This document shows positions 14,836 to 52,381 of a stretch of DNA of 64,000 nt, in pieces. The notes under the pieces were generated by a model that made no database searches, was not told where the DNA came from, and was given only the letters and a program-made list of their open reading frames with translations. How positions within the stretch are numbered: the first letter of the stretch is position 1; each line of letters starts with the position of its first letter. The stretch lies in contig NZ_OCNK01000001.1 of NCBI RefSeq assembly GCF_900230285.1, forward strand, positions 310,001-374,000, read 5' to 3'. Source of the DNA: Blastococcus haudaquaticus. Lineage in GTDB: Bacteria; Actinomycetota; Actinomycetes; Mycobacteriales; Geodermatophilaceae. Both the position numbers and the translations under genes were made by a program.

Positions 14836-14897
14836 ACGGCCCCGGTGCAGGGGCCCGCGCCGAGCTTGCGAGGCGTGGGGGGCACCGGGGTCCTTTC
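14836..14897 (-). repeat. 3'-end hairpin element, copy 1 (after SDR stop)
   Basis: Read on the minus strand, AAGGACCCC begins directly after the SDR TGA. The outer stem CCCCGGTGC (14890-14882) pairs with GCACCGGGG (14848-14840). The inner stem CCCCACGCC / GGCGCGGG encloses the conserved loop around TCGCAAGCTC. It lies between convergent DUF3107 and SDR genes, so it can serve as a terminator for both. It is one of at least five copies in the window with different but still complementary outer stems. Confidence 0.8.
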
Positions 14898-15606
14898 ACA
14901 GGTCGACGACGGTCCGCCAGTGCTCCCGAGGGCCGGCGGTCTCGGCCACCAGCTCGGCGTAGAGGGCGGCCACGCGGTCGGGGTGGATCTGCCGGTCCTC
15001 CCCCACCAGGCCGCGCACCGTCACCGTGGCCACGTGGATGCCCTCCGGTGCCAGAGCCCTGGCCTGGACCTCGGTGAGCGCGCGCAGCGCCGCCTTCTGC
15101 ACGCCGAGGCTCGCCATGGAGGTGATCGGCCGGTCGGCCGAGCCACTGCCGGTGACCAGGACCGTCCCCGAGCCGCGCTCCCTCATGCCGGGCAGCACCG
15201 CGCGGACCGCCGTCTGCAGACCGACCACCCCTGCCGCGAGGTCGGCCAGCAGGTCGCCGGGGGCCAGCTCCGGGACGGCCGACTGCCGGCCGACGGAGAC
15301 GTTGTAGAGCAGGACGTCGACCGGGCCGAGCGCCGCGGTGAGCGTGTCGACGGCGGCGGTCAGCGACACCGGGTCCCCCGCCTCGGCCGCCGCCCACTCG
15401 GTGCGCACCCCGTCGGCGCGGAGCGCGGTGCCGAGCTCGGCGAGCGCGGCCTCGCGCCGGGCCACCAGCCCCACGGCGTGACCCGCGGCGGCGAAGCGGC
15501 GGGCCGTGGCGGCCGAGATGCCCGGTCCCGCGCCGACGACGAGGAAGTGCTGCCGAACGGCCCCGGCGCAGGGGCCCGCGTCGAGCGTGCGAGGCGTGGT
15601 GGGCAT
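14896..15606 (-). CDS. short-chain dehydrogenase/reductase (SDR)
   Basis: 236 residues with an SDR-like Rossmann motif VVGAGPGISAATARRFA near residues 22-38, a YNVS strand in place of NNAG, and the catalytic region GTVLVTGSGSAD. The usual YxxxK is not obvious: the region reads MASLGVQKAALRAL, with Lys but no Tyr at the expected place, so catalysis may be altered. Substrate unknown. The ATG at 15606 lies inside the hairpin element that follows the upstream gene, so the first 18 or so residues (MPTTPRTLDAGPCAGAV) are repeat-derived; no better start is visible. Likely co-transcribed with the ferritin-fold gene upstream. Confidence 0.8.
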   Translation of the reverse strand: MPTTPRTLDAGPCAGAVRQHFLVVGAGPGISAATARRFAAAGHAVGLVARREAALAELGTALRADGVRTEWAAAEAGDPVSLTAAVDTLTAALGPVDVLLYNVSVGRQSAVPELAPGDLLADLAAGVVGLQTAVRAVLPGMRERGSGTVLVTGSGSADRPITSMASLGVQKAALRALTEVQARALAPEGIHVATVTVRGLVGEDRQIHPDRVAALYAELVAETAGPREHWRTVVDL

Positions 15607-15618
15607 CGGGGTCCTTCA
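15555..15618 (-). repeat. 3'-end hairpin element, copy 2 (after MiaE-like stop)
   Basis: On the minus strand AGGACCCC follows the TGA of the ferritin-fold gene. Outer arms CCCCGATGC and GCGCCGGGG pair with one mismatch and one wobble. The loop region TCGCACGCTC is conserved. The downstream SDR start codon lies within the 5' arm region, so the element overlaps the SDR coding sequence. Confidence 0.78.
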
Positions 15619-16269
15619 GGGGTTGAGACCGAGCGCCTTCATGCGCTTGGTGTGTGCACTCGTGATGCGCTCGATGAGGAGCGCCACGCCCCGGATGTCG
15701 CCGGTGCCCGCGATGATCAGCTCGGCCAGGCGGTCGTGCTCGGCGATGACCGCCTGCGACTGGCTCATCGCCTCGCCGACGAGCCGGCGGCCCCAGAGGG
15801 ACAGCCGGCCGGGGACCTTGCGATCGGCCTTGACGGCCGCGCGGACCTCGCGGACGGCGAAGTCCGCGTGGCCGGTGTCGGCGAGCACGTCGAGCACCAG
15901 CGCCCGGTCGGGGTCGGGGAGGAACGCGGCGATCTCCCGGTAGAAGTCGGTGGCCAGTCCGTCGCCGACGTAGGCCTTCACCAGACCCTCGAGCCAGGTG
16001 CTCGGCCGGGTGCTCTCGTGGAAGGCGTCGAGGGCCGGGACGAACGGCGTCATGGCCACGGCCGGGTCGACACCCAGCTCCGCCAGCCGGTCGGTGAGCT
16101 GCACGTGGTGGGTGATCTCCGCCGCGGCCATCCTGGCGAGCGCGGCCCGGCCGGTCAGGGTCGGGGCGAGCCGCGCATCCTCGGCCAGCCGGTCGAACGC
16201 GGTGAGCTCCGCGTAGGCGAGGGCGCCCAGCAGATCCACGACGGCACTGCTGTCGACCGGGGTCGTCAC
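15616..16269 (-). CDS. ferritin-like fold MiaE-type hydroxylase domain protein
   Basis: 217 residues from GTG 16269; GGAG lies 6 nt upstream, which favours it over the ATG two codons earlier that abuts the GGAG. The all-helical sequence carries di-iron-type ligands: YAELTAFDRLAEDA, MAAAEITHHVQLTDRL (ExxH) and LADTGHADFAVREV. It resembles actinobacterial ferritin-like proteins related to the tRNA hydroxylase MiaE (Rv3210c position next to rhlE). Substrate not shown. A hairpin element starts at its stop and reads into the SDR gene. Confidence 0.85.
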   Translation of the reverse strand: MTTPVDSSAVVDLLGALAYAELTAFDRLAEDARLAPTLTGRAALARMAAAEITHHVQLTDRLAELGVDPAVAMTPFVPALDAFHESTRPSTWLEGLVKAYVGDGLATDFYREIAAFLPDPDRALVLDVLADTGHADFAVREVRAAVKADRKVPGRLSLWGRRLVGEAMSQSQAVIAEHDRLAELIIAGTGDIRGVALLIERITSAHTKRMKALGLNP

Positions 16270-50356: not shown

Positions 50357-50476
50357 CGGCGCGACACTATCGCCCACCCGCCCGGCGGGCGGGCGCCGCG
50401 CACCACCGGCCCCAGTGGTGGTCTGCGGCAACGCGGCCCCCAGGGCGGCACCGTCGCCGCTGCGCCGCCCGTGCTG

Positions 50477-52249
50477 TCAGACCGCGGCGCGCACGTCGGG
50501 GGCCCCGAGCCGGGCGGCGTCCGCCGTGTGGTCGTCGGGCATCCGCTGGGACTCCCGTTCCGCCTCGACGCGCGCCGTGTAGTGCGCGACCTCGCGGCTG
50601 GTCCGCTCCTCGTCCCAGCCGAGCGCCGCAGCCATGAGCCGCGCGACCTGCGGCGCGGACTCCACGCCCCGGTGGTCGGTCTCGATGGACACCCGCGTCC
50701 GCCGGGTGAGGACGTCGTCCAGGTGCAGGGCGCCTTCGGCGAGGACGGCGTGCACCACCTCGGCGGACAGGTATCCCGGCGCGCCCTCGAGCGGCCGGGC
50801 CAGCGCCGGGTCGGAACGCGCGAGGTCCAGGACGTCGCCGGTGCGGTCACCGTGCCGGCGCAGGAGCCGCGCGACCGTCGACTCGGGTACGCCGCTGCCG
50901 TCGGCGAGCTCCGCCGCCCGGTCACGGACGTCGGCCCAGCGGTGCGCGCCCACCAGCGGCAGCCGGGCGGTCCGGGAGGCCGGCGCGCCGGGCAGACCTG
51001 CCACCGCCGCGTCGACGGCGTCCTCGGCCATGACCCGGTAGGTCGTGTACTTGCCGCCCGCCACGAGGACCAGGCCGGGGACCGGGGTGATGACGGCGTG
51101 CTCGCGGGACAGCCGGCTGGTCTGGTCGGACTCCCCGGCCAGCAGCGGGCGCAGCCCGGCGTAGACACCGAGGATGTCCTCGGGGGTGACCGGACGCACG
51201 AGCACCCGGTTGACCTGGTCGAGGATGTAGTCGATGTCCGCGCTGCTGGCCGCGGGGTGGTCGCGGTCGAGCCGCCACGGGGTGTCGGTGGTCCCGATGA
51301 TCCAGCGCTCGTCGCCCCAGGGGATGACGAACAGGACGCTGGTCGGCGTCCGGAGGATGAGCCCGGAGGGTGTGCCGCCGGCGGTTGCCAGCGCGTCCCC
51401 GTCGATGGCCGCGCGGGGCACCACGAGATGGACGCCCTTGGAGGCGCGGACCTTCAGGCTGGGCGCGTCCGCACCGAGCATGGCTCCGACGTCGTCGCTC
51501 CAGACGCCGGTCGCGGCCACGACGCTCCGGGCCCGGACCGTGAAGGACGACCCGTCGGTCAGGTCGGCCACGCGGGCGCCGACGACCGGCGAGTCCGGTC
51601 CGTCGCCGTCGCCGTCGCGCAGGAGGTCGACGACGCGGGCGCTGGATAGCACCCGGGCGCCGTAGCCGGCAGCCGTGCGGACGACGGCCAGGGTGTGCCG
51701 GGCGTCGTCCACCTGCGCGTCCCAGTAGCGGATCGATCCGCGGACGACGTCACCGCGCAGGCCCGGGAACGCCGCGAGCGTCTTCTTCCGCGAGAGGTGC
51801 CGGTGGCGCGGGATCTCCCGGCCGCGGGCGAACGCGGCACCGAGCACGTCGTACAGGGCGACGCCCGCGCCGAAGTAGGCGCGCTGCCAGACCGGTGCGG
51901 TGAGCGGCAGCAGGAAGGGCAGCGGTGTGACGAGGTGCGGGGCGATGGTCTGCACCAGCCGGGCACGCTCCGACAACGCCTCGTGCACCAGCGGGAACGC
52001 GAACTGCTCGAGGTAGCGCAGGCCGCCGTGGATGAGCTTGCTCGACCGGCTCGACGTGCCGGCCGCCCAGTCCCGCGCCTCCACCAGCGCGACGGAGAGC
52101 CCGCGGCTGGCGGCGTCGAGCGCCGCCCCGGCACCGGTGACGCCGCCACCGATCACGAGGACGTCGACGACCTCGTCCTCCAGGCGGGCGCGGTCGGCGC
52201 GGCGGCGCGCCGGTGACAGCAGCGTGCGGTCGGTCTCCCCCGGGTGCAT
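50477..52249 (-). CDS. glpD: FAD-dependent glycerol-3-phosphate dehydrogenase
   Basis: 590 residues. N-terminal FAD motif VLVIGGGVTGAGAALDAASRG, SSKLIHGGLRYLEQ, then TDTPWRLDRDHPAASSADID and the C-terminal helical domain (DVRDRAAELADGSGVPESTV). Membrane-associated oxidation of glycerol-3-P to dihydroxyacetone-P. It separates manA from the SIS/manB block, an arrangement unlike the contiguous order in M. tuberculosis, so an insertion or rearrangement is likely. ATG 52249; the leader holds a GGCTC-hairpin and the DUF808 3'-end element. Confidence 0.93.
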   Translation of the reverse strand: MHPGETDRTLLSPARRRADRARLEDEVVDVLVIGGGVTGAGAALDAASRGLSVALVEARDWAAGTSSRSSKLIHGGLRYLEQFAFPLVHEALSERARLVQTIAPHLVTPLPFLLPLTAPVWQRAYFGAGVALYDVLGAAFARGREIPRHRHLSRKKTLAAFPGLRGDVVRGSIRYWDAQVDDARHTLAVVRTAAGYGARVLSSARVVDLLRDGDGDGPDSPVVGARVADLTDGSSFTVRARSVVAATGVWSDDVGAMLGADAPSLKVRASKGVHLVVPRAAIDGDALATAGGTPSGLILRTPTSVLFVIPWGDERWIIGTTDTPWRLDRDHPAASSADIDYILDQVNRVLVRPVTPEDILGVYAGLRPLLAGESDQTSRLSREHAVITPVPGLVLVAGGKYTTYRVMAEDAVDAAVAGLPGAPASRTARLPLVGAHRWADVRDRAAELADGSGVPESTVARLLRRHGDRTGDVLDLARSDPALARPLEGAPGYLSAEVVHAVLAEGALHLDDVLTRRTRVSIETDHRGVESAPQVARLMAAALGWDEERTSREVAHYTARVEAERESQRMPDDHTADAARLGAPDVRAAV

Positions 52250-52317
52250 GACTCCTACTGTCCCCCACCCGCGCCCGGCCCCGTCCGGAGGCTCACGGCG
52301 AGCCAGGTGACGTGCTG

Positions 52318-52381
52318 GAACGGCCCTCCTGCAGGGGCCCGCCGCGAGCGTGCGAGTGGCGGGGGGCAGGGGGGTCCTTCT
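52318..52381 (-). repeat. 3'-end hairpin element, copy 4 (after DUF808 stop)
   Basis: On the minus strand, AAGAAGGACCCC follows the DUF808 TGA. Outer arms CCCCCCTGC and GCAGGAGGG pair apart from one wobble; loop TCGCACGCTCGCGG. It lies between DUF808 and glpD on the same strand. A related half-element (GTCCGGAGGCTC) lies just beyond at 52283-52294, shared with the copy after secA. Confidence 0.78.

Follow-up and report, generated by a model that had tools for sequence, protein, structure and literature searches.

Why should a bacterial genome carry the same hairpin directly behind the stop codons of many genes, with arms that differ from copy to copy and stay complementary? The question is raised by a stretch of 64,000 nt of Blastococcus haudaquaticus DNA (contig NZ_OCNK01000001.1, positions 310,001 to 374,000; the window, below), in which a first reading of the letters alone had picked out at least five copies of such a hairpin and a degenerate one, and had taken their covarying arms as a sign of selected RNA structure. 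Our results identify these copies as members of a palindromic repeat family, specific to the Geodermatophilaceae (bacteria from soil, stone and desert), which stands directly behind the stop codons of about 100 genes in this genome; the strictness with which it abuts stop codons is the surprising part of the finding. The best-supported reading, to which we give about even chances, is that the repeat is mobile and that its complementarity is kept up at the DNA level, and the main rival is a function in host RNA.

The repeat family and its distribution

All five copies named in the original prediction (75 to 89 bits) and the degenerate one (23 bits) are present in the window, and each of the five starts 0 to 2 nt after, or overlaps, the stop codon of a gene on the same strand. 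They are given here with their associated features (positions of the whole stretch; bit scores of covariance model R2):

14835..14895, (-) strand: repeat copy, 84.5 bits, at offset 0 from the TGA that closes a short-chain dehydrogenase gene (Pfam adh_short)
15556..15616, (-) strand: repeat copy, 75.4 bits, in 1-nt overlap with the TGA of a MiaE_2-domain gene (Pfam MiaE_2), the A of TGA doubling as the A of AAGG
18335..18395, (+) strand: repeat copy, 89.4 bits, 2 nt past the TGA of a DEAD-box helicase gene (Pfam DEAD, Helicase_C)
37373..37416, (-) strand: decayed copy, 23.2 bits, behind a gene with a C-terminal motif, from which we take it to be SecA-like
47364..47425, (-) strand: repeat copy with an 11-nt loop, 77.1 bits, adjoining the TGA of ahcY (Pfam AdoHcyase)
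47351..47363, (-) strand: 3' tail of the ahcY copy, CCATCCGGTCACC, from the sequence
47312..47351, (-) strand: terminator-like hairpin belonging to ahcY, distinct from the repeat and lying downstream of it, from the sequence; the layout is repeated in genomes G006, G010, G011 and G013
52319..52379, (-) strand: repeat copy, 80.2 bits, 2 nt past the TGA of a DUF808 gene (Pfam DUF808)
52306..52318, (-) strand: 3' tail of the DUF808 copy, CCAGCACGTCACC, from the sequence
52278..52305, (-) strand: partial second copy (loop and 3' half) directly past this tail, from the sequence; the layout recurs with 14- to 15-nt spacing in other genomes

A scan of the window against Rfam gave no match at gathering score. 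The element is a hairpin of about 61 nt with AAGGACC/GGCCGTT ends, often followed by a 13-nt tail, and its consensus reads G AAGGACCCC NNNN C CC CCC A CNNC TCGCANGCTC GNNG C GGG N CCCT G NNNN GGGGCC G TT, then CCAGCACGTCACC. Within it, a 4-bp block is hypervariable yet complementary, the internal loop is asymmetric, and an inner stem carries the TCGCANGCTC loop; the outer stem measures 11 bp, the inner stem 7 bp and the terminal loop 10 nt, and between the paired blocks one A on the 5' side and one G on the 3' side are unpaired. The conserved ends are GAAGGACC and GGCCGTTCC (201 copies). Conservation of the loop and ends had been foreseen, whereas the conserved extent had been drawn too short, as the 3' tail lies beyond GGCCGTT; the tail is matched at 9 or more of its 13 positions in 138 of 341 copies. 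Under a loose pattern, a partial copy (loop and 3' half) follows 28 of the 341, in 18 cases at 14 to 15 nt past the hairpin. The sense tail after the stem is GTTCCAGCACGTCACC, with no U-tract directly following.

When the genome of B. haudaquaticus (4.51 Mb, 11 contigs) was searched with R2, at least 150 matches were obtained, 149 of them with E below 1e-4, and retrieval of the regions and merging of overlapping matches left at least 152 repeat places, which confirms the family at the scale of the genome. R2 matched 101 of 112 genomes of the same taxonomic family, in 9 of 12 genera. Across the phylum, matches were found in 2 of 296 genomes, one of them the genome of B. haudaquaticus itself and the other with a single weak match; among relatives, 22 of 41 genomes matched, all 22 of the same family, and none of the 16 order-level genomes in that search did. 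A scan with the end pattern (80 listed loci and 36 further loci used without listed names) gave named matches in Blastococcus, Geodermatophilus, Modestobacter, Klenkia and Goekera, all Geodermatophilaceae; three of the 80 listed loci (L092, L101 and L126) came from outside the family, and none of the three matches R2. The single weak match of the phylum-wide search (38 bits, L175:1501-1553) lies in a genome of another family of the same class and may be due to chance or transfer.

Copy number is uneven. A broad model, R3, built from 109 varied copies, found none in G041, one weak copy in G015, 2 in G057, 5 in G018, 6 in G047, 14 in G061, 30 each in G013 and G063, 49 in G049, 90 in G012 and at least 150 in B. 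haudaquaticus, so that the low-copy genomes stay low with the broad model too. Some copies in low-copy genomes nevertheless exceed 70 bits, and such genomes therefore hold more than decayed relics. At L174:4447-4639, three identical copies stand head to tail with 66-bp spacing, and copies occupy the same places in G051.

Position relative to stop codons

Offsets were measured as the end of the stop codon relative to the repeat (negative before it, positive inside it), with a frame caller blind to the repeat. In B. haudaquaticus, a stop codon ended within -15 to +5 nt in 113 of the 119 copies that follow a same-strand gene, and within -3 to +2 nt in 102 of these. The corresponding counts in a mixed-genome set were 174 and 166 of 183 (219 places after merging of overlaps, 31 of them from B. 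haudaquaticus, so that the two sets overlap), against 47 of 1,609 for random positions; the predicted enrichment directly after stop codons is thus borne out. Single offsets in B. haudaquaticus were -2 (42 copies, all with TGA), -3 (14), -1 (9), 0 (14), +1 (12) and +2 (11). TAA made up 12 of the 113 adjacent stops, compared with 15 of 1,036 stops in the loci, and 8 of these 12 stood at +2, where they are formed with the element's own AA. Abutment was equally high in the best- and the worst-scoring copies. Of 47 other hairpins behind stops with a perfect stem of 9 bp or more, 8 started at 0 to 3 nt.

When a stop on either side is counted, 128 of the 152 places touch one; 42 copies precede a co-directional gene and 25 lie between two adjacent convergent stops. 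The orientation relative to the upstream gene, which had been described as always the same, is so in most copies, but 16 have a divergent gene upstream; a further 17 were classed as non-coding upstream, and some of these and of the divergent copies, all kept in the totals, are probably mis-called. In 10 of the 16 divergent copies the bottom strand has a TANNNT box no more than 16 nt from the repeat, compared with a frequency of 0.0012 in random stretches, from which a promoter region differs in any case; the box is present in 12 of the 15 mixed-set copies with a divergent gene upstream. A model in which the element simply targets TGA or TAG fits the copies beside TANNNT boxes; it would lead one to expect many copies at intergenic TGA triplets that are not stops, of which few were seen by eye among the copies listed, and we rejected it.

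At ten loci (L020, L025, L258, L269, L295, L321, L279, L338, L347 and L348) the 5' end of the repeat stands within 16 nt of the TANNNT promoter-like box of a divergent gene, with no same-strand stop.

Arm covariation and wobble pairs

That the outer arms vary and remain complementary was supported by two alignments. For the first, 68 distinct 61-mers were chosen solely by nine bases at each end, an ungapped set that avoids fitting the alignment to the structure. The column pairs with the highest mutual information, neighbours aside, were 10-52, 11-51, 23-36, 13-49, 22-37, 12-50 and 24-35, all seven of them pairs of the hairpin; the adjacent columns 10-11 rank just above the seventh. The second was fitted to the model and comprised 104 copies, 102 of them distinct; the share of paired cells is 96.7%, and this value falls to 44 to 60% when the 3' partner is slid by 1 to 3 columns. 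Cells changed on both sides numbered 251, against a mean of 69 in 500 shuffles.

Covariation of this kind had been taken to argue for a selected RNA structure. A hairpin that works in the sense transcript is expected to tolerate G-U pairs well above A-C mismatches, and the reverse was found. Among 5,914 pair cells of 339 distinct elements, 5,584 were Watson-Crick, 56 G-U, 145 A-C and 129 other on the sense strand, counts that do not represent independent events, since the copies are related and a few rows are the reverse strand of another row. An ungapped set of 134 elements gave 12 G-U and 48 A-C. By contrast, 15 distinct tRNAs from the same loci showed 302 Watson-Crick pairs, 14 G-U and no A-C, and in a small control sample of 12 T-tailed hairpins, the 10 that had one mismatch showed 7 G-U, no A-C and 3 others. 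In the inner stem the imbalance is strong (81 A-C and 8 G-U at pairs 15-17) and amounts to a skew toward wobble in the opposite strand; the outer stem has 9 G-U and 9 A-C in the ungapped set and 36 G-U and 60 A-C in the gapped set.

This pattern argues against upkeep by sense-RNA selection alone, and it fits either correction by template switching at the DNA level or a folded bottom strand. According to the part of PMC8794818 drawn on here, template switching can itself maintain the complementarity of a hairpin in DNA. The step from compensatory change to a selected RNA structure is not supported.

Orthologous sites

The 3' end of ahcY was compared in 21 genomes, the window and 20 relatives (genomes are given by our handles). 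The repeat is present in 11 of them (G000, G009, G010, G013, G016, G019, G021, G022, G067, G098 and G107), with stems of several variants and a distance from the stop of at most 6 nt. A relic is seen in G002 and an unrelated palindrome in G012 and G049; the remaining seven lack the repeat. Outside this set, it also follows ahcY in G006 and G011. A separate terminator-like hairpin of the GCGGCTCACCC...GGGTGGGCCGC type comes after the repeat in G000, G006, G010, G011 and G013, and another G+C-rich hairpin occupies that place in G041, G047 and G057, which have no repeat there. The copies of G000 and G067 both begin with TGAGAGGACC. At pair 8-54, G000 has C-G where G067 and G010 have A-T, a difference that would be compatible with compensation in place or with conversion between copies.

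At the L360 site, behind a third gene, the repeat is found in G057, G058 and G051 and is lacking in G041, G047, G061, G042, G063 and G015, G046 and G049 being unassignable in this comparison. A similar downstream hairpin stands in all nine genomes, filled or empty; the three filled genes end in TAG or TAA and the six empty ones in TGA. At both this site and ahcY, the repeat is thus present in some genomes and absent from others at the orthologous place. At both, too, the stop codon is followed first by the repeat and then by a distinct terminator-like hairpin, and relatives without the repeat still carry a hairpin of this kind there; the proposal that the repeat is itself the terminator is not upheld. 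Behind the SecA-like gene, a whole or partial copy was found in 4 of 26 readable relatives (G006, G009, G098 in reverse and G016 in part). On the gnd side (L369), one copy is common to G057 and G046 and another type is found in G042; in the remaining eight genomes no copy, or at most a relic, can be recognized.

Behind ahcY in G049 and G012 (L179 and L187), a different inverted repeat of about 60 to 70 nt, GGCATAGG...CCTATGCC, stands in the same place after the stop, which suggests that other palindrome families use this position. In G015, which has at most one weak copy of the family, the ahcY stop is followed by two palindromes with GGTACC at their centre (L242).

Relation to known palindromes

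Among the top-ranked results of searches in a collection of open-access literature, none describes this palindrome family by title or abstract. In the portion of PMC3733652 used here, the GTAG class of repetitive extragenic palindromic (REP) sequences, which is associated with REP-associated tyrosine transposases (RAYTs), is described as high-copy, extragenic, mostly 3' of genes, with alternative complementary stem residues, frequent GT pairing in the stems and a copy number that differs strongly between species. The present family likewise consists of many dispersed extragenic palindromes per genome (here at least 152) in uneven copy number among species. It differs in length (about 61 nt compared with 20 to 40 nt), in having its own ends in place of GTAG, in the rarity of GT pairs in its stems, and in the lack of a partner enzyme of the RAYT kind: PF01797, the family of Y1 transposases that includes RAYTs, had no match in 108 genomes of the Geodermatophilaceae, although as a positive control it matched in 5 of 14 control genomes. 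An origin by RAYT was rejected on this ground. The same source, in that portion, describes CGTC-tagged REPs as having a short unpaired tail beyond the stem and no known dedicated transposase, with stems of 8 to 9 bp, almost always A-T pairs first and loops mostly of 4 to 5 nt. A short unpaired tail is shared, and the present one contains CGTC, but several bases past the stem, and the two stems (11 and 7 bp) and the 10-nt loop are unlike.

Escherichia coli REPs, too, can lie just behind stop codons. Within 15 nt of the stop they reportedly cause ribosomes to stall and translation to decrease (Liang et al. 2015, cited from the part of PMC12306157 drawn on here), and the same part counts 446 of 4,072 by one prediction tool, and 260 of 496 in an earlier study, within that distance; the present family reaches 113 of 119 among copies behind same-strand genes. 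Intrinsic terminators share the G+C-rich hairpin at gene ends; they have a U-tract, which the sense stem of the repeat lacks. The attC site of integrons is likewise a palindrome of the folded strand right after a stop codon, with core boxes that are different.

Weighing the possible origins

We regard it as an evenly balanced proposition that the family is a REP-like dispersed palindrome, mobile, and kept complementary at the DNA level. The repeat would multiply as DNA, by means of an enzyme that recognizes the ends, bulges and loop of a folded single strand; the complementarity of its arms would be kept by the requirement for this fold and by hairpin-templated (template-switch) correction, and not by selection on the sense mRNA alone. 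Insertions may survive where the reading frame closes at about the same residue, and the first bases of the element (GAAGG) would often complete the stop. Lying so near to the stop, the hairpin may slow termination or alter decay of the upstream mRNA from its 3' end, in the manner reported for E. coli REPs within 15 nt. In favor of this reading are the presence or absence of copies at orthologous sites, the spread of copy number from none to at least 150 among relatives, the identical head-to-tail copies, the lack of a wobble preference on the sense strand, the abutment to stops and the share of TAA among these. A bolder version, which we put forward tentatively and consider rather unlikely, is a new class of mobile palindromes aimed at stop codons, in which the folded strand would land a few bases or less from the stop and often complete it, its arms would be corrected from the hairpin template, and the enzyme would belong neither to the known Y1 transposases nor to the integron integrases.

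Several results weigh against mobility with upkeep at the DNA level. PF01797 was absent from all 108 genomes, other transposase families not having been searched, and the integron integrase model TIGR02249 was over its cut-off in none of the 108 (weaker matches occur in all 108 and likewise in all 14 controls). Neither a target-site duplication nor the exact boundary of an insertion was legible at orthologous sites, where the nearest pairs of empty and filled sites are only about 87 to 92% alike. No two copies in B. haudaquaticus are identical (smallest edit distance, 2); this fits the earlier statement that simple duplication is not at work, and it gives no sign of recent spread there. At ahcY, the copies retain their ends and layout across genera, which suggests constraint in place, that is, a host function, and abutment within 3 nt is not accounted for by random insertion and purifying selection alone. 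As to the wobble counts, a broad hairpin control with two mismatches allowed gave 49 G-U, 49 A-C and 201 other, mostly from chance hairpins, and lends the reading no support; the rows are non-independent, and a few are reverse strands of others; and pair 23-36 supplies 53 of the 145 A-C cells, although without it the counts are 54 G-U and 92 A-C, and an excess of G-U on the sense strand is still absent.

A rival explanation is an element of host 3' untranslated regions, selected gene by gene. Read in the mRNA, its hairpin would shield the 3' end, take part in processing it or hold up the ribosome at termination, with a protein bound to the loop. The abutment to same-strand stops, the covarying arms, the conservation of loop and ends while the arms vary (the ends were in part selected for in the 68-member set and were seen in 201 copies) and the ahcY layout with its exchange at pair 8-54 all speak for it. 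We hold this explanation to be possible but on the doubtful side, as the sense strand lacks the tolerance of G-U seen in tRNAs, some relatives, among them a member of the same genus, have no copies or almost none, and 16 copies have a divergent gene upstream. The A-C cells of the sense strand are G-U in the antisense strand, and one may therefore think of a terminator or insulator on the bottom strand that ends opposite-running transcripts just before the 3' end of the gene or the next promoter; the skew of the inner stem, an antisense tail (TCCTTC and the complement of the stop) with more U than the sense tail, the TANNNT boxes beside divergent copies and the 25 copies between convergent stops would suit it. 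It is improbable nonetheless: the 42 copies that precede a co-directional gene have no evident antisense transcript to end, the outer stem is unbiased in the ungapped set, if biased in the larger gapped one, and the U-tract is weak. Very improbable, finally, and largely refuted is an attC-like site of recombination behind each gene, formed by folding of the bottom strand, for all that it would share extrahelical bases, variable complementary arms, uniform orientation after the stop and an inner stem skewed toward the bottom strand. A 3' end of GTTCCAG is at odds with GTTRRRY; in most of the relatives compared, ahcY and the SecA-like gene are on one contig at a distance of about 10 kb and show no sign of a cassette; and with no integrase over the cut-off an attC origin was rejected.

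If mobility with upkeep at the DNA level is correct, the Actinobacteria would harbor a large family of palindromic repeats that does without the transposase accounting for GTAG REPs and is tied to stop codons more tightly than has been reported for E. coli REPs. It becomes testable how small palindromes spread without a RAYT, and whether repeated hairpins covary through selection on RNA or through template switching in DNA; the ratio of G-U to A-C is a simple test applicable to other repeat families. The case also warns against classing such hairpins as terminators.

Two minor observations may be added. Repeats stand 65 bases from contig ends in G051 (C18) and G064 (C27), where they may have caused breaks in the assembly. 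In the window, a very weak match (18.9 bits) at 56291-56346 on the (+) strand may be a relic or due to chance.

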